64,000 bases of DNA from Candidatus Roseilinea mizusawaensis (lineage in GTDB: Bacteria > Chloroflexota > Anaerolineae > J036 > Brachytrichaceae), in contig JAEANN010000053.1 of the NCBI GenBank assembly GCA_016841965.1, positions 62,001 to 126,000 of the forward strand, given 5' to 3'. Position 1 is the stretch's first letter; each line of letters opens with the position of its first letter. The notes beneath the pieces are model-generated. The model ran no database searches, had not been told where the DNA came from, and saw nothing but the letters and a program-made list of their open reading frames with translations. This document shows, piece after piece, positions 12,600 through 64,000 of the stretch. The position numbers and the translations under genes were made by a program.

Positions 12600-13988
12600 C
12601 TACTTGTCCAGGCCGGTCAGTTGCCAGATCAACTGGCGGGTGACGGCGCGGGCGTGATGAGTAGCTTGTGTGATGCGATGCTGCGTGTGGGTCGCAGCGC
12701 GATCCGGCGCGCGATGCGGCGCGCGATGCGGCGCGCGATCCGGCGCCAGGCTGGGCGACATGACCCAGTCTCGCACGGGGCGCGTCGTCTGTGCGAAAGA
12801 CAGATCGGTGCGCGCGTACTCGAGCGCAAGCCGGGCAAGCCGATCTCGACGGTCAGGGTTGCGCGACAGAGACAGGATGTGTTCGGACAGGGCCGGCGCG
12901 TCGCCGACGGCAAAGCTGAGGCCGGCCCCACGGTCGCGCAACACATAGCTCAACGCGCACCCTTCGGTCGTGAGCACCGGCAATCCCGCTGACATCATCT
13001 CCAGCAAGCGCGTGCGCGTGCCATACACGGTTTCATAGTGCATGGCATCCACATTCAGCCCAACATCACTGTCGCGGTAATAGCCGGCGATCTCGCGCCA
13101 GGGTCGCCAGCCCAGCAGATGATAGCGCGCGCGATGCCTAGAGCCTGCAATCATGCTGATGAAGCGGTCATACTGCGTCTGCGGCCCAGGATACGTGCTG
13201 GCCCCGATCGAGACAAAACGAATGCGCGGATCGCGCGACAGGGCAACTTCCAGCGCGGCAAACAGCGTGTCCACATCGGTCCACGTGTTGTAGCCGCCAC
13301 ACCACAAGACGATGAAATCATTGGGCTGCACGCCGATCTCAGCCAGCGCGGGCCGCTCGCGGGACGAGGAGGTGGATGGTAACGCAACGTCGGTGGATGG
13401 CGCGCCCGGCAGCACAATCCGCACGAACTCGTAGCCGGTGGTCTGCCAGTTGAGCCGGCCTGCCATGGCCAGTTCTCCCACGGTCATGTGCGCCTGAGGC
13501 GCACCGCAGGCCGAGAAGACATCCCCCCGTTGCAGCACCTGCCGCATGAATGCAATCGTCGTCGGCAGGCCCCGATTCGAGCGGCGGCGAAAGGCCGCCA
13601 ACTGCATGATGGTCAGGTAATCGCCGTAGATATCCATCCAGATTGGCCGGCTGGTGCGCAGGCGCGTGGCGTACAAACACGGCGCGAAGTTGACCGCCAC
13701 GATGACATCGGGGGCAAAGGCGTCATGGATGCGCTGAAGCTGGCTGATCCATCCAGGGCGGTTAAATGCAATTGGATGATACGACAACCGGTTGCGCCAC
13801 GACGCGGGAATGTACTGCGCGGCATGTTCGTTTGACGCGGGCATTGCATCTTCAGCGCACAGGCTGACCACATGTCCATCGTCCAGCAGCGGCTGGAGGA
13901 ATTGCCAGGTGCGATAATGCGCCGCCTCAACCTTGACAGTGGGGTCGAATTGCGGGGGCTTGTTGCCAATCAACAAGATGCGAGACAT
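12600..13988 (-). CDS. Glycosyltransferase, GT4 family, with repeat-derived C-terminal tail
   Basis: This 462-residue GT-B enzyme has VLWCGGYNTWTDVDTLFAAL at the start of the donor domain and GLNVDAMHYETVYGTRTRLLEMMSAGLP further on, a GT4 donor site. It opens SRILLIGNKPPQFDP. After about residue 415 the fold ends, and the tail is built of APHR/APDR units encoded by 12-bp tandem repeats (12693-12747). The tail is Arg- and His-rich and probably disordered. The start ATG overlaps the stop of the sulfotransferase gene by one base. Confidence 0.84.
   Translation of the reverse strand: MSRILLIGNKPPQFDPTVKVEAAHYRTWQFLQPLLDDGHVVSLCAEDAMPASNEHAAQYIPASWRNRLSYHPIAFNRPGWISQLQRIHDAFAPDVIVAVNFAPCLYATRLRTSRPIWMDIYGDYLTIMQLAAFRRRSNRGLPTTIAFMRQVLQRGDVFSACGAPQAHMTVGELAMAGRLNWQTTGYEFVRIVLPGAPSTDVALPSTSSSRERPALAEIGVQPNDFIVLWCGGYNTWTDVDTLFAALEVALSRDPRIRFVSIGASTYPGPQTQYDRFISMIAGSRHRARYHLLGWRPWREIAGYYRDSDVGLNVDAMHYETVYGTRTRLLEMMSAGLPVLTTEGCALSYVLRDRGAGLSFAVGDAPALSEHILSLSRNPDRRDRLARLALEYARTDLSFAQTTRPVRDWVMSPSLAPDRAPHRAPHRAPDRAATHTQHRITQATHHARAVTRQLIWQLTGLDK
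12693..12747. repeat. In-frame 12-bp tandem repeat in a GT4 gene
   Basis: About four units of CGGCGCGCGATG (last base C or G) lie head to tail, clearest at 12705-12740. They fall in the coding frame of the gene at 12600-13988, where each unit adds four residues (APHR or APDR on the minus strand). The period is a multiple of three, so unit gain or loss would not break the gene. Confidence 0.85.
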
Positions 13989-14767
13989 TATCCAGTCACA
14001 AATCCACTCACAAAGCTGCCGATGCGCTGGCCGGCCCGGGTTGGTACGATGACTTCGTCAAACATAGCTTCATACTCGGTGCCGCTGTAGCGCGCGCGCA
14101 GGGCGTCGAAATTGGTGATGACTTCACGCAGGTCGTCGCTGGTTGCTTTGAACGTGCTCGGCTTCACCGGCAGCAGTGGAACGTTCAGGAATTCAAATGT
14201 CCGCGCCAGCACCGCGTTGATGTCTTGCAGCATCTCCTCGTAAGTGATGGACAGCGTCGGCAAACCAAGACTGCTCACGTAATCCGCCGATTCACGGTCT
14301 GTCCGCTCGCGGTTGCGGAGCGCTTTTTCAAACTGAATAAAGTCAACCTCGAATGGCGGCAGACGCTTGGATTCATCGTACAGGTTCCACATGCCGGTGG
14401 CTTTCTCCAGGCGTTTGCCGTTCAAATGCGAGACGACCGACTTGATACGGTTGCGGCGCCAGATGTGAATAATCTTTGGCTGCTTCTCGCGCAACACCTG
14501 GGCGTACCCGGCGGGATCGGCAAGCTGAACCGGCTTGATCTTGAAGCCGATGGCGCCCTTGCGGCTGATCAGTGGGGGGGTTAGAAATTTGAGCGTCCAT
14601 TCTCGCTGCTGTTCGGCAGTCATATCCATGAGTGTCTCGTTCAAACCCAACACGTTTGGATGGGCGTTCATCGAACTGGTGAGGAAGTTGCTCCCAACCC
14701 GGCCAACAATAAACATCACGAAGTAAGTCACTTCAGACCCCAGATAAAACAGTCTTGCCTTGCTCAT
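13988..14767 (-). CDS. Sulfotransferase (P-loop, PAPS-dependent type)
   Basis: This 259-residue protein carries a 5'-phosphosulfate loop near the N-terminus, FIVGRVGSNFLTSSMNAHP (residues 21-39), and a 3'-phosphate-binding stretch around HIWRRNRIKSVVSHL. This is the layout of bacterial and animal-type sulfotransferases. It would move sulfate from PAPS to a sugar hydroxyl, pointing to a sulfated polysaccharide. I chose the ATG at 14767 over a TTG at 14785 because GAGGAG lies 10 nt before the ATG and inside the longer reading. PAPS synthesis genes are not in the window. It sits between two glycosyltransferases on one transcript. Confidence 0.8.
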   Translation of the reverse strand: MSKARLFYLGSEVTYFVMFIVGRVGSNFLTSSMNAHPNVLGLNETLMDMTAEQQREWTLKFLTPPLISRKGAIGFKIKPVQLADPAGYAQVLREKQPKIIHIWRRNRIKSVVSHLNGKRLEKATGMWNLYDESKRLPPFEVDFIQFEKALRNRERTDRESADYVSSLGLPTLSITYEEMLQDINAVLARTFEFLNVPLLPVKPSTFKATSDDLREVITNFDALRARYSGTEYEAMFDEVIVPTRAGQRIGSFVSGFVTG

Positions 14768-59974: not shown

Positions 59975-60331
59975 ATGACCACATCTGAAAACCGGCCCGC
60001 CTTGTTGTCGCTTGCTATCATTGCCCTGACGCTGGCAACGGCCATCATTCACATCGTGCTGGCCATCCCGGCCGGCCTGCTCATGTTCTACGCCAATGGG
60101 CTGGGGTACGTGGCGCTGCTGGGCGCGATCCACCTGCCCTTGCCCACATTAGACCGCTACCGCCGAGCGGCGCGCTATGCGCTGCTCGCCTACACCGCCG
60201 TCACGGTGCTGGGGTGGGTGGCATTCGGCGCGCGCGATACTATTGGCTACATCGACAAAGCGATCGAGGTCGCTCTAATTGTGCTGCTGCTGATTGAAAT
60301 CAAAAGAAACAAAAAACGCTCAATAGGTTGA
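59975..60331 (+). CDS. Small four-helix membrane protein of unknown function
   Basis: This 118-residue protein has four hydrophobic segments (ALLSLAIIALTLATAIIHIV, LMFYANGLGYVALLGAI, YALLAYTAVTVLGWVAF, AIEVALIVLLLIEI) and a basic tail (KRNKKRSIG). It resembles small uncharacterised proteins common in Chloroflexota. A GAGGAG-containing sequence lies upstream of the ATG. It follows the acyltransferase by 21 bp and ribA starts 6 bp after it, so it is part of the operon. No function is suggested. Confidence 0.72.
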   Translation: MTTSENRPALLSLAIIALTLATAIIHIVLAIPAGLLMFYANGLGYVALLGAIHLPLPTLDRYRRAARYALLAYTAVTVLGWVAFGARDTIGYIDKAIEVALIVLLLIEIKRNKKRSIG

Positions 60332-60337
60332 TGCAAT

Positions 60338-61069
60338 ATGTACCAGATGAACCGCATGGCGTGTGCGCGCATTCCCACAGCGGCGGGAGAGTTTCAGCTC
60401 TGCCTGTATAGCAATAACGCAGACGACAAGGAACATTTGGCACTGGTGTGGGGCGATGTGGCCGGCCGGCGCGATGTGCTGACTCGAGTACATTCTGAGT
60501 GTTTCACCGGCGATGTGCTCGGCTCACTGCGCTGCGACTGCGGCGAGCAACTGGCGCGCGCCATGGGCATGATCGCCGCCGAGCGCGTCGGCATCATTCT
60601 CTATCTGCGGCAGGAGGGACGCGGCATCGGCCTGCTCGCCAAGCTGCGCGCCTACAATCTGCAGGATATCGGCTACGACACCGTCGACGCAAATCTGCAA
60701 CTGGGGCATCAAGCAGACGAGCGGGACTACACGCCGGCAGCCTGTATGCTGCGCGACCTCGGTGTGGAATCGATTCGCCTGATTACCAACAACCCCTCCA
60801 AAGTCGAGGCGTTGCGCGAGTTGGGCATTGCGGTGACCGAGCGGGTGCCCATCATTCCAACAGTGCACAAAGAAAATGCAGCTTACCTCGATACCAAGGC
60901 GCGACGAATGCGCCACTGGCTCGATCTAAACGGGATGAACGCGCCGGCCCTTGTTAAGCCGGCGGATAGAGCTAGTTCAATCGGCCAGTCGCTTAACGGG
61001 AACGCTCACAGCAATGGGCATCGCAATCACCAGGTCAACGGAACAAACGGCGCACATGACGAACACTGA
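60338..61069 (+). CDS. ribA: GTP cyclohydrolase II
   Basis: The protein (243 residues) has the zinc ligands C55, C66 and C68 in HSECFTGDVLGSLRCDCG, the RQEGRGIGL phosphate-binding loop, and Y106, aligned with the Tyr105 of E. coli RibA that supports full conversion of GTP to the 2,5-diamino pyrimidinone. It stands alone, without the RibB (DHBP synthase) half common in two-domain RibBA proteins. The final 40 residues are low-complexity (SLNGNAHSNGHRNHQVNG). AGGTTGA lies ahead of the ATG. Clustering with a RibD-C reductase, a PTPS and a GT suggests a second role beyond riboflavin. Confidence 0.9.
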   Translation: MYQMNRMACARIPTAAGEFQLCLYSNNADDKEHLALVWGDVAGRRDVLTRVHSECFTGDVLGSLRCDCGEQLARAMGMIAAERVGIILYLRQEGRGIGLLAKLRAYNLQDIGYDTVDANLQLGHQADERDYTPAACMLRDLGVESIRLITNNPSKVEALRELGIAVTERVPIIPTVHKENAAYLDTKARRMRHWLDLNGMNAPALVKPADRASSIGQSLNGNAHSNGHRNHQVNGTNGAHDEH

Positions 61070-61739
61070 GCCGGCCGGCGTCAGACCATACGTCACGCTG
61101 ACCTATGCCCAGAGCCTCGACGGCAGCATTGCTGCACAAGCCGGCCGTCCACTAGCACTGAGCGGCGCGGAATCACTGCGCCTGACGCATCGTTTGCGCG
61201 CTCAACACGATGGCATTTTGGTCGGCATCGGCACGGTGCTGATCGACGACCCGCAACTGACGGTGCGTCTGGTGGAGGGGCGCAACCCCAGGCCGGTGAT
61301 CGTGGACAGCCAGTTGCGTTGCCCACCTACTGCACGCCTGTTTCGCGCCGGCACAGCACACCCCCTCATCGCCACGACGACGCTGGCGCCCGAATCACGC
61401 GCCAAGGCGCTGCAACAGGCCGGGGCGCGCATCCTGCGCTTGCCCCACACTGCCGACGCGCGCGTATCGCTGCCACACCTGCTGGCCGCCCTACGCGCCG
61501 AGGGCCTCACCAGCCTAATGGTCGAAGGCGGCGCCGGCATCATCACCAGTTTCATCCGCTCGCAGTTGGTCGATGAAATCGTGCTGACGATTGCGCCGCT
61601 TTTGGTGGGCGGCATGCACGCTATTAGCGGCCCCCTCTCTGCCGATACCACTGCGCTGCCACGCCTGCGCAACCTGACATGGCAACAACTCGGCAGCGAT
61701 CTCATCGTGCAGGGCATCCCCTACTGGCCCACCCCATAG
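61056..61739 (+). CDS. RibD C-terminal-type (DHFR-fold) reductase
   Basis: This 227-residue protein matches the reductase half of RibD: YVTLTYAQSLDGSIA, GILVGIGTVLIDDPQLTVR, PVIVDSQLRCP, and EGGAGIITSFIRSQLVDEI. The deaminase half is absent. It would reduce the ribosyl chain of the pyrimidine product of GTP cyclohydrolase II to a ribityl chain, using NADPH. The ATG at 61056 lies 14 bp inside ribA, pointing to translational coupling; an open frame from 60951 is not used. As no deaminase is visible, the pathway may diverge from riboflavin here. Confidence 0.82.
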   Translation: MTNTEPAGVRPYVTLTYAQSLDGSIAAQAGRPLALSGAESLRLTHRLRAQHDGILVGIGTVLIDDPQLTVRLVEGRNPRPVIVDSQLRCPPTARLFRAGTAHPLIATTTLAPESRAKALQQAGARILRLPHTADARVSLPHLLAALRAEGLTSLMVEGGAGIITSFIRSQLVDEIVLTIAPLLVGGMHAISGPLSADTTALPRLRNLTWQQLGSDLIVQGIPYWPTP

Positions 61740-61741
61740 CC

Positions 61742-61797
61742 AATACGCAATACGCAACACGCAACACGGAATACGCAATACGCAACACGCAACACGT
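61742..61797. repeat. Heptamer tandem array, eight copies
   Basis: AATACGC, AATACGC, AACACGC, AACACGG is repeated twice (28-bp super-unit) in the 66-bp gap between the reductase and dehydrogenase genes. Such heptamers recall the short tandemly repeated repetitive sequences known from cyanobacteria and are, as I recall, also found in Chloroflexota. Confidence 0.92.
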
Positions 61798-61805
61798 GCC
61801 ACACC

Positions 61806-62828
61806 ATGCAGCGACTCAGCGTTCTCTTCGCCGCCCCGCGCCACATCACCGTTGTCGAAGACAAGGCGCCGGATATCAGGCCCGATCAGGTCCTGGTGCG
61901 GGCCATCGTGTCGGGCATCAGCGCCGGCACTGAAATGCTGTTCTATCGCGGGCAGGTTCCACCGGACATGCCGGTGGACACCTCGATCACATCGCTGGCC
62001 GGCCCGATGGGCTATCCGCTCAAGTATGGCTATGCGCTGGTTGGCCAGGTGATTTCAGTCGGCGCAGACATCGACCCGGCCTGGCGGGGGCGACGCGTGT
62101 TTGCGTTCCATCCTCACGAGAGCCATTTCACCGCCACCCCAGACGAGCTGATCTCGGTGCCGGACGACATCGAAGCCGAAGACGCAGTGTTTCTAGCCAA
62201 CATGGAAACCGCCGTCAATCTGGTCATGGATGGCCGGCCCATGCTCGGCGAGCATGTGGGCGTGATCGGTCAGGGCGTGGTCGGGCTGCTCACCACCGGC
62301 CTACTGGCGCAGTTCCCGCTCGGCCGGCTCGTCGCGCTCGACCGCTACCCGTTGCGCCTGGAGGTGGCGCGCACTTTTGGCGCGCATCTGGCGCTCGACC
62401 CGGCCACGCGCTCCGACGACGCGCTGCACAGTGCGCTGGCCCAGGGCCGGGGCGCAGACCTCATCTATGAGTTGAGCGGCAACCCCGCTGCGCTCAATCA
62501 CGCCATCGCGCTCGCCGGCTACCACGGGCGGATTGTGGTCGGCTCATGGTATGGGCAGAAGCAGGCGCTGCTCGACCTGGGCGGGCGCTTCCATCGTCAG
62601 CGCATCCAGATCATCAGCAGCCAGGTGAGCACCATCGCGCCGGAGTGGTCGGGGCGATGGGACAAGGCGCGCCGGTTCAGCGTCGCATGGGACATGATTC
62701 GCCGGCTGCGCCCGCGCCGGCTGGTCACCCATCGCGTTGCAGTGAGCGAGGCAGCGCAAGTCTACGCGCTGCTAGATCAGCAGCCAGAGCAAGCACTTCA
62801 GGCCCTGCTGACTTATCCAGAGCTGTAA
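61806..62828 (+). CDS. Medium-chain dehydrogenase/reductase lacking the catalytic zinc cysteine
   Basis: This 340-residue protein has the MDR fold with a coenzyme domain starting VGVIGQGVVGLLTTGLL. In zinc alcohol dehydrogenases the first zinc ligand is a Cys in the GxCGTD motif; here the stretch is SGISAGTEMLFYRG, as in BchC-type and related zinc-less members. FHPHESHF precedes the substrate domain. It would oxidise or reduce an alcohol or ketone next to the pyrimidine/pterin enzymes. The ATG is 66 bp after the reductase stop, behind the heptamer array. Confidence 0.78.
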   Translation: MQRLSVLFAAPRHITVVEDKAPDIRPDQVLVRAIVSGISAGTEMLFYRGQVPPDMPVDTSITSLAGPMGYPLKYGYALVGQVISVGADIDPAWRGRRVFAFHPHESHFTATPDELISVPDDIEAEDAVFLANMETAVNLVMDGRPMLGEHVGVIGQGVVGLLTTGLLAQFPLGRLVALDRYPLRLEVARTFGAHLALDPATRSDDALHSALAQGRGADLIYELSGNPAALNHAIALAGYHGRIVVGSWYGQKQALLDLGGRFHRQRIQIISSQVSTIAPEWSGRWDKARRFSVAWDMIRRLRPRRLVTHRVAVSEAAQVYALLDQQPEQALQALLTYPEL

Positions 62829-62919: not shown

Positions 62920-62936
62920 GATAATTGCAGCCACTA
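62920..62936 (+). promoter_or_regulatory. Possible -10 box just before the PTPS gene
   Basis: GATAAT at 62920-62925 lies 10 bp before the ATG at 62936, and no ribosome-binding sequence is visible there. A leaderless transcript starting at or near the ATG is possible. The -35 region (TTTTTA, 17 bp upstream) is poor. Confidence 0.25.
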
Positions 62937-63328
62937 TGTACACAACCGCAGTCAAACGTGACTTTGTCGCCCAGCATTTCCTAATCGGCGGAGACTGGGG
63001 CGCCGAAAACCAGTGGCACTCACATCACTATCAGATCGAAGTTCAACTTCAGGGTGCGACGCTTGATCGGCACGGCTATCTGGTCGATATCGTAGACATC
63101 GAGCGCGCCCTGAATGAACTGGTAGCCTATTTCCGCGATAAAACGCTGAACGAGCTGCCCGAGTTCGCCGGCCTCAATCCCAGCCTCGAACATTTCACGC
63201 GCATCTTTGCACACGCCTTCGCACAACGCATCCATGCGCCCAACCTGTCCAGCCTGATGGTCACCATCTGGGAGAACGACATCGCCTGGTCGGCCTATCG
63301 GCATGATCTGACTGCGCCGGCCAGTTAG
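62936..63328 (+). CDS. 6-pyruvoyl-tetrahydropterin synthase homologue (PTPS/QueD family) with altered active site
   Basis: This 130-residue protein has zinc ligands H14, H28 and H30 in FVAQHFLIGGD and WHSHHY, and the pterin-anchoring Glu in NPSLEHFTRIF and WENDIAW. The catalytic Cys of QueD and PTPS lies four residues before the second His; here that position is Glu (E24). Glu in place of Cys is a known mark of PTPS forms that cleave dihydroneopterin (PTPS-III type), replacing FolB. The gene starts 107 bp after the dehydrogenase. A longer open frame from 62546 is shadow. Its substrate is uncertain. Confidence 0.8.
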   Translation: MYTTAVKRDFVAQHFLIGGDWGAENQWHSHHYQIEVQLQGATLDRHGYLVDIVDIERALNELVAYFRDKTLNELPEFAGLNPSLEHFTRIFAHAFAQRIHAPNLSSLMVTIWENDIAWSAYRHDLTAPAS

Positions 63329-63339
63329 AACCGCACCTC

Positions 63340-64000
63340 ATGCGCGTTGGCCTGCTGATCTACGGCAGCCTGAACACAGTATCGGGTGGCTATCTCTACG
63401 ACCGTATGCTGGTGGACACTCTGCGCCGGCATGGCGATGAGGTCGAGATCATCAGCTTGCCCTGGCGGACATATACCGCCCACTTGACCGACAACCTCAG
63501 CCTGACGCTGGCTCGGCGCTTACAGCGCTTGCGAGTGGATGTGCTGCTGCAAGACGAACTGAACCATCCTTCTCTGTTCTGGGTCAATCGGCGCCTGCGC
63601 CCATTGCGCTACCCAATCGTCAGCATTGTGCACCACCTGCGTTGTAGCGAGCAGCGCCCGGCCTGGCGAAACGCGGTTGTGCGCGAGATCGAGCGGATCT
63701 ATCTGCACAACGTGGATGGCTTTGTGTTCAACAGTCAGACCACTGCCGCCAGCGTGCGCCGGCTACTCGCACACCGCTCGGCGGACTCGCGGATTGGCCA
63801 TGGCGCGGACGCAGTAGAGCGCGTTGTAGCCCGCGCCATGTTGCGCCGGCAGCAGCCGGCCAGAATGCGTCTCTCCAACGCGCTTGACTTCTCGGTGGTG
63901 GCTTATCCCGCCGGCAATCGCTTTGGGCCGGCTATTGGCGAGGCCGATCTCATCGCGCGGGCCAAACGCCCCGGCCCGCTCCAACTGCTTTTCGTCGGCA
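63340..64000 (+). CDS. Glycosyltransferase, GT4 family, 5' part (cut by window edge)
   Basis: An ATG at 63340, 11 bp after the PTPS stop, opens a frame without stop to the edge (220 codons). The protein opens MRVGLLIYGSLNTVSGGYLY, an N-terminal GT-B domain with a glycine-rich acceptor loop. It continues through VFNSQTTAASVRRLLA to the start of the donor domain at LQLLFVG. It is typical of GT4 transferases. Placement directly behind PTPS suggests that the product of this group is glycosylated, as in pterin glycosides. The rest of the gene is outside the window. Confidence 0.82.
   Translation, partial: MRVGLLIYGSLNTVSGGYLYDRMLVDTLRRHGDEVEIISLPWRTYTAHLTDNLSLTLARRLQRLRVDVLLQDELNHPSLFWVNRRLRPLRYPIVSIVHHLRCSEQRPAWRNAVVREIERIYLHNVDGFVFNSQTTAASVRRLLAHRSADSRIGHGADAVERVVARAMLRRQQPARMRLSNALDFSVVAYPAGNRFGPAIGEADLIARAKRPGPLQLLFVG

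Follow-up and report, generated by a model that had tools for sequence, protein, structure and literature searches.

The window, by which we mean the whole stretch of 64,000 nucleotides that was analysed, ends in a series of genes around a PTPS-fold protein, part of which continues beyond it in L002:

59003..59953, + strand: acyltransferase (PF01553), an optional neighbour found in 11 of 80 related loci
59975..60331, + strand: 118-aa hydrophobic, membrane-like protein, matched at 25 of the 80 related loci
60338..61069, + strand: monofunctional GTP cyclohydrolase II (GCH II), closest to E. coli RibA
61056..61739, + strand: RibD-C-type reductase lacking a deaminase domain, whose gene begins before that of GCH II stops
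61806..62828, + strand: MDR-family dehydrogenase, BchC/polyol-dehydrogenase-like by remote matches
62936..63328, + strand: PTPS-fold (T-fold) protein of a WGxEN...HSHHY subfamily, by Pfam, NCBIfam, alignment and AF2 model
63340..64000, + strand, continuing to L002:4573 outside the window: GT4-type glycosyltransferase, 11 bases after the PTPS gene
In L002 outside the window, same strand: methyltransferase, overlapping the GT4 gene

The 118-aa protein, GCH II, reductase, MDR dehydrogenase, PTPS-fold protein, GT4 and methyltransferase form a tight run on the same strand. The window GCH II, the only one in its genome, keeps Tyr105 and all three zinc-binding Cys of E. coli RibA, and the nearest solved structures of the reductase include 2,5-diamino-6-ribosylamino-4(3H)-pyrimidinone 5'-phosphate reductases. 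Across the 57 MDR rows aligned there is no conserved Cys, so the dehydrogenase probably works without the usual catalytic zinc, and its substrate is a guess from remote relatives. The gap between the reductase and MDR genes is filled by a tandem repeat at 61741-61796, which can be read as two 28-base or eight 7-base units (CAACACG/AATACGC). Outside the window, long near-identical repeats with PALAGVPIARN-like units, open in both directions, occupy L002:12533-13585 (contig C16), adjoined by an ORF at 13594-14244 that we labelled transposase-like by eye.

The PTPS-fold protein and its active site

The ORF at 62936-63328 (+) encodes 130 aa, beginning MYTTAVKRDFVAQHF and including the internal stretch DWGAENQWHSHHYQIEV, and its translation gives E24, H28, S29, H30, H31 and Y32, with no Cys anywhere in the protein. 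It belongs to Pfam PF01242 (88.3 bits; cut-off 22.4), as do 11/11 members of set A1, while its score against the NCBIfam QueD model, 45.6 bits, lies under the cut-off of 89.25, and it is likewise under those of 6PTHBS and TIGR03112.

To compare active sites we used a common alignment of 86 window-type, 5 haloarchaeal, 10 SCO6650-type and 6 reference rows. Row L009 (genome G012) is not among the 86, and by eye its E24, H28, H30 and D68 are identical to those of the window type; four further loci, duplicates of contigs L057, L069, L078 and L085, were also omitted. In this alignment E24 falls on the catalytic-Cys column, which holds Cys in 4 of the 6 reference rows, the other two being the engineered Ala of QueD C27A and the Trp of P. 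horikoshii 2dj6. H14, H28 and H30 fall on the zinc-His columns, E113 on that of the pterin-anchor Glu, and R67-D68 on the catalytic Asp-His pair, the roles of these columns being what we take them to be from QueD/PTPS work. Among the window-type rows, H14, E24 and H30 occur in 86/86, H28 and E113 in 85/86, D68 in 84/86, and S29 and Arg or Lys at 67 in 83/86 each; the haloarchaeal rows have E24, H14, H28, H30, D68 and E113 in 5/5 each. A smaller alignment set A23 instead of E24 opposite the Cys by means of a one-residue gap, and the AF2 model (pLDDT 86.2) is least confident just there, with residues 19-23 below 50. Thus E24 likely holds the Cys-position register in the loop, the exact register being uncertain.

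These results bear out the proposal of an earlier sequence-only reading that Glu takes the place of the catalytic Cys, with the register likely, and they leave no room for a Cys elsewhere in the active site, the protein having none. That reading had also described HSHHY as a departure from LHGHxY, which comes down to Gly29 being replaced by Ser: the two zinc His remain, with H14 as the third. The replacement of the catalytic Asp-His pair by R67 and D68 had escaped it. Judging from the aligned residues, the active site has been rebuilt consistently, with the zinc His and anchor Glu kept and Cys-Asp-His turned into E24/R67/D68. Since E24 (86/86) and D68 (84/86) are near-invariant, we regard this as a separate subfamily and not as decay. 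A local oddity or random drift is ruled out by the same figures and by the same residues in haloarchaea.

The best PDB match to the model is 3d7j, SCO6650 of S. coelicolor (PTPS-IV type; Foldseek rank 1), which VIA-align superposes with Z 16.4, rmsd 2.2 and 124 aligned residues; PTPS/QueD structures match the model at Z 13-16. By sequence, too, SCO6650 is the nearest relative of solved structure: phmmer relates the window protein to it at E 2.5e-10, and the window-family profile does so at E 3.3e-46, a value inflated since the SCO6650 sequence is itself in the profile.

The cassette in other genomes and on plasmids

A scan of genome contigs returned 452 relatives, of which the best 80 were kept; these come mostly from Chloroflexota, with some from Desulfobacterota-type, Calditrichia and Binatota MAGs. 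Among these best 80 of 452, many on contigs that are cut, we found matches to the glycosyltransferase in 73 loci, the MDR dehydrogenase in 58, the methyltransferase in 56, the reductase in 48, GCH II in 41, the membrane protein in 25, a CDP-alcohol phosphatidyltransferase in 18, the acyltransferase in 11 and a creatininase in 1. Where the flank was sufficient, the MDR dehydrogenase (50/65), the reductase (38/61) and GCH II (33/56) lay upstream of the PTPS gene, and the glycosyltransferase (59/65) and methyltransferase (42/56) downstream, all five being present in 19 of the 43 full-flank loci of this set. GCH II was not adjacent in 23 of the 56 loci with sufficient flank, and in two genomes searched over their whole sequence (G010 and G053) it lies elsewhere. 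Many loci without the upstream genes consist of the PTPS and glycosyltransferase genes alone, often with the methyltransferase. L030 and L031, 19-kb loci from the same class whose PTPS is not of the window type, contain no cassette gene.

On plasmids, for which 16 of the 31 distinct matched records were examined, the MDR gene lies directly upstream of the PTPS gene in 14 of 16 regions, from haloarchaea, Streptomyces, Arthrobacter and Proteobacteria. Haloarchaeal plasmids carry the same core, one with an adjoining GCH IIa and one with a creatininase, and an FGPAQ version of the cassette occurs on plasmids of Streptomyces, Arthrobacter, Thiodictyon, Methylosinus and Rhizobiales/Rhodobacterales. 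In a tree of 48 rows, the window clade including the haloarchaea (100/98) is distinct from the SCO6650 clade (100/99). The haloarchaeal rows are nested in Chloroflexota rows, with L012 excluded at 99/88 and nearer joins at 81/61 and 92/92, which suggests transfer, whichever its direction. These PTPS genes travel as a conserved cassette in Chloroflexota, Desulfobacterota and haloarchaea, and a related cassette surrounds SCO6650 (PTPS-IV) in Streptomyces and Proteobacteria.

Several loci show peculiarities of their own. Two Streptomyces plasmids (L133, L134) have an SCO6650-type PTPS gene without other cassette genes, near MEKHLA, cupin and MBL-fold genes; the Haloarcula marismortui match (L039:9001-9362) is split in two in both records, has no annotated gene and may be a broken copy; and one Chloroflexota cassette has about 1.3 kb extra between the MDR and PTPS genes (L026:8322-9683). 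CDP-alcohol phosphatidyltransferases lie near the cassette in 18 of the best 80 of 452 loci and on several plasmids (for example L033:6379-7152 and L054:5023-5739), and LPG-synthase-type membrane proteins in 20 of the same best 80; together, as neighbours, they hint at a lipid-linked product.

The window protein and SCO6650 share the fold, and both keep the pterin-anchor Glu and have lost the catalytic triad. The surroundings of the SCO6650 type, seen in its Streptomyces plasmid relatives, contain MDR, PTPS, GT4, methyltransferase, GCH II, reductase and CDP-alcohol phosphatidyltransferase genes. The SCO6650 structure paper is said to report no zinc and no PTPS activity. The two types differ in that the SCO6650 type has FGPAQ in place of WGxEN, lacks the third zinc His (HGA, with Ala in 10/10 rows), has Ala/Tyr in place of E24/D68, and is accompanied by a creatininase. 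Because the window methyltransferase does not align with the Streptomyces one (E 0.55) and the window PTPS-fold protein shares 25% identity with its S. fungicidicus counterpart of the SCO6650 type, the products of the two cassettes may differ. The association of the PTPS family with GCH II and RibD-C is already partly known: PF00925 and PF01872 were reported beside PTPS-IV in 2017, PF00925 being called GTP cyclohydrolase I in the relevant passage (PMC5445326).

The GCH II enzymes differ in a corresponding manner. Tyr105 is present in 41/41 of those at Chloroflexota/delta loci, where one of the best 80 of 452 loci has a match to a creatininase, while the cluster-linked Streptomyces enzymes, two in number, have Met in its place (2/2) and an adjoining creatininase (2/2); the one Streptomyces-side creatininase that was scanned scores under every curated cut-off. 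GCH II yields the diaminopyrimidine directly, whereas variants that stop at the formyl stage need a deformylase, and the Met-type GCH II of S. coelicolor, SCO6655, reportedly releases the formylated pyrimidine. According to passages of PMC9478397, Sinorhizobium has a creatininase-family protein that removes the formyl group from this very compound. By this Tyr/Met-creatininase pattern, all versions of the cassette appear to converge on the diaminopyrimidine.

The genome that contains the window (G000) is 99.19% complete and has one PTPS homologue and one GCH II, both in the window, with no match to FolE, FolE2, FolB, FolK, QueC or RibH (lumazine synthase). The QueC matches that the search gave elsewhere, being short or weak, may stem from similar ATP-binding proteins. 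The lack of lumazine synthase led us to reject, for this genome, a part of the GCH II/reductase pair in riboflavin synthesis. We then counted the genes in 180 genomes of the class, this one included, each at least 90% complete. Window-family PTPS was present in 43 at 100 bits or more and in 39 at 150 bits, GCH II in 54, and lumazine synthase over its cut-off in 18. Among the 162 genomes without lumazine synthase, the 150-bit line gave 35 with both genes, 3 with GCH II only, 1 with PTPS only and 123 with neither (Fisher p 7.5e-31, without correction for kinship); the 100-bit line gave 36, 2, 3 and 121, respectively. The exceptions with PTPS and no GCH II are G040 and, when the cut-off is loosened, G145 and G155; those with GCH II and neither PTPS nor RibH are G099, G124 and G158, of which G099 has a weak PTPS match of 104 bits. 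In a set of 60 genomes, window-type PTPS occurs in 10/10 of those with GCH II and no RibH (the window genome, G003, G005, G006, G010, G012, G015, G019, G047 and G053) and in one further genome lacking GCH II, G040; of these 11, FolE is absent from 9 (present in G047 and G053) and FolE2 from all 11.

A possible route from GTP to a glycosylated pteridine

The window gene encodes neither a folate nor a queuosine enzyme. It is one member of a widely conserved set whose enzymes probably convert GTP, along an unusual path, into a pterin-like molecule that carries sugar. More specifically, our leading reading, tentative and somewhat short of an even chance, is that a distinct PTPS-fold subfamily acts in a cassette that makes a glycosylated, probably methylated 2-amino-4-oxo pteridine from GTP via GCH II instead of GCH I. 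It builds on what is observed: family membership, the motif changes, gene order, co-occurrence, and the missing folate, queuosine and riboflavin genes. The suggestion of the sequence-only reading that the substrate may be a different one is supported: it is probably not dihydroneopterin triphosphate made by GCH I, the genome having no GCH I of either type.

The first two steps would follow from close family matches. GCH II would open and deformylate GTP to give 2,5-diamino-6-(5-phosphoribosylamino)pyrimidin-4-one, a step that in other versions may fall to the Met-type GCH II (Streptomyces) or GCH IIa/III (haloarchaea), together with a creatininase-family deformylase. The RibD-C reductase would then yield the ribityl compound, and since no deaminase is present, the 2-amino group would stay. 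From the dehydrogenase onwards, we infer the chemistry, the order of steps and the product. The MDR enzyme would oxidise a secondary alcohol of the side chain, most simply at C2', to a 1-amino-2-ketose, the same one that GCH I makes by Amadori rearrangement, so that reductase and dehydrogenase, with no net redox change, would replace the Amadori step. The ketose would close on the 5-amino group to give a dihydropterin. For this ring closure the PTPS-fold protein is a natural candidate, given its zinc site, anchor Glu and E24/D68: it would bind the 2-amino-4-oxo ring via Glu113, with zinc and Glu24/Asp68 aiding closure (or tautomerisation) to 7,8-dihydroneopterin phosphate. Decoration of the pterin would fall to the GT4 enzyme and methyltransferase, and some genomes may add a lipid to it by means of a CDP-alcohol phosphatidyltransferase or acyltransferase.

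Taken to its full extent, the proposal would have the GCH I reaction split over four proteins (GCH II, reductase, MDR dehydrogenase and zinc T-fold PTPS), feeding a glycosylated and in places lipid-linked pterin in uncultured Chloroflexota, Desulfobacterota and haloarchaea, a version that we consider somewhat unlikely. GTP cyclohydrolase I (FolE) is a T-fold zinc enzyme, as the window protein would be, and its overall reaction of ring opening, deformylation, Amadori rearrangement and ring closure would be that of the cassette, if the proposal is right. The likeness would be one of fold and overall reaction, with the work divided in the cassette over several unrelated enzymes. Against the route stand the zinc loss in the SCO6650 type, the dissimilar methyltransferases and the exceptions to co-occurrence; as the SCO6650 type has lost the third zinc His and has Ala/Tyr for E24/D68, zinc catalysis cannot be common to all versions.

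That same loss of a zinc ligand in relatives within a similar cassette, along with the replacement of all three catalytic residues, fits an unlikely alternative in which the protein is a pterin-binding, non-catalytic partner (carrier, chaperone or regulatory subunit) that has kept the fold and the anchor Glu. A decaying site, however, would not be expected to retain its zinc ligands, or E24 in 86/86 and D68 in 84/86 rows, both also in 5/5 haloarchaeal rows, over several phyla and in two domains of life. Quite unlikely, in our view, is that the product is not a pterin but a ribityl-pyrimidine, a lumazine-like or a deazaflavin/F420-related compound, with the PTPS-fold protein binding a 2-amino-4-oxopyrimidine. 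GCH II and a ribityl-forming reductase are indeed the entry to riboflavin and F420, and a passage of PMC5041015 mentions unpublished data linking PTPS-IV to F420, but the reductase here has no deaminase domain and the window genome no lumazine synthase.

If the GCH II route is true, GTP cyclohydrolase I would be dispensable for making pterins, and organisms now counted as pterin-less may make a glycosylated pterin of a new kind. PTPS homologues are annotated en masse as QueD/PTPS, and a subfamily as large as this one, with 452 relatives in a single scan, can be neither and has a clear set of genetic partners. The orphan solved structure SCO6650 can thereby be placed in a pathway whose order of reactions is open to test. 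In a limited literature search we found no paper assigning a product to the cassette, and no description of the zinc-keeping WGxEN/HSHHY clade with its Chloroflexota/haloarchaeal cassette, of the absence of GCH I, or of the Tyr/Met-creatininase pattern.

Relation to the known PTPS classes

The sequence-only reading, which is partly supported as a whole, had linked the Glu to the dihydroneopterin aldolase-like PTPS-III, and it is this link that fails. PTPS-III retains the catalytic Asp-His pair, which in the rows aligned is present in those with a CExxHGH motif and in 2dj6, whereas the window type has Arg or Lys at 67 in 83/86 rows and Asp on the His column in 84/86. The two have in common a Glu by the zinc motif that replaces the catalytic Cys, with the zinc ligands kept. 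As given in passages of PMC5041015, the motifs are CxxxHGH for PTPS-I/QueD, CxxxxxHGH for PTPS-II and ExxHGH for PTPS-III, while FGPAQ is the signature of PTPS-IV in the part of PMC5445326 that treats it. The window protein has ExxxHSH (E24 in 86/86, S29 in 83/86) and WGAEN. Its Glu stands at -4 from the first zinc His, in the Cys register, one residue earlier than the -3 of PTPS-III, which leaves the PTPS-III link unsupported. The genomic context is not that of PTPS-III either, where folE and folK would accompany a missing folB: folE, folE2 and folK number zero here, and with folB and folK both absent there would be no next enzyme for a FolB substitute to supply. Looking for folB and folE in the genome thus found neither, and the sole PTPS homologue is the window gene itself.

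A control is provided by four Chloroflexota genomes of the 60 (G031, G034, G048 and G055), whose PTPS has a hybrid CExxHGH motif and in no case is of the window type. All four have FolE and FolK and lack FolB, the pattern expected of a FolB bypass, from which the window genome differs. It is therefore decidedly improbable that Glu24 cleaves the side chain of dihydroneopterin (phosphate) in the manner of Plasmodium and bacterial PTPS-III to give a 6-hydroxymethyl-dihydropterin that the glycosyltransferase then modifies, even if a Glu at the catalytic position, the retained zinc ligands and the presence of P. vivax PTPS with Glu37 mutants among the structural matches speak for it. The CExxHGH proteins found with FolE and FolK and without FolB (L014, L015, L016 and L017) are likely PTPS-I/III folate bypass enzymes.

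Ordinary QueD (6-carboxytetrahydropterin synthase), the NCBI annotation of the plasmid relatives, has virtually no chance of being correct, as the protein has no catalytic Cys, scores under the QueD cut-off and falls in a separate clade (100/98), and its genome lacks GCH I and any QueC match. Both its distinctness from QueD and its grouping outside ordinary QueD thus agree with the sequence-only reading. What it shares with QueD/PTPS-I is the T-fold, the zinc His and the pterin-anchor Glu; the Cys, the Asp-His pair and the queuosine genes are missing and the neighbours are others. The CxxxxxHGH motif of PTPS-II is absent too, and motif and genome inventory together rule out QueD, PTPS-II and folate roles. 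With PTPS-IV the window locus shares the neighbourhood, PF00925 and PF01872 being represented by the genes at 60338-61069 and 61056-61739, but not the signature, which is WGAEN as against FG[P/S]AQ in 10/10 SCO-type rows. The window-type clade, set apart from PTPS-I to IV by motif, may already bear the number PTPS-V. Two further PTPS homologues, L018 and L019, are divergent, have the motifs HTHSY and HSHSW, and lie on long branches outside all groups.
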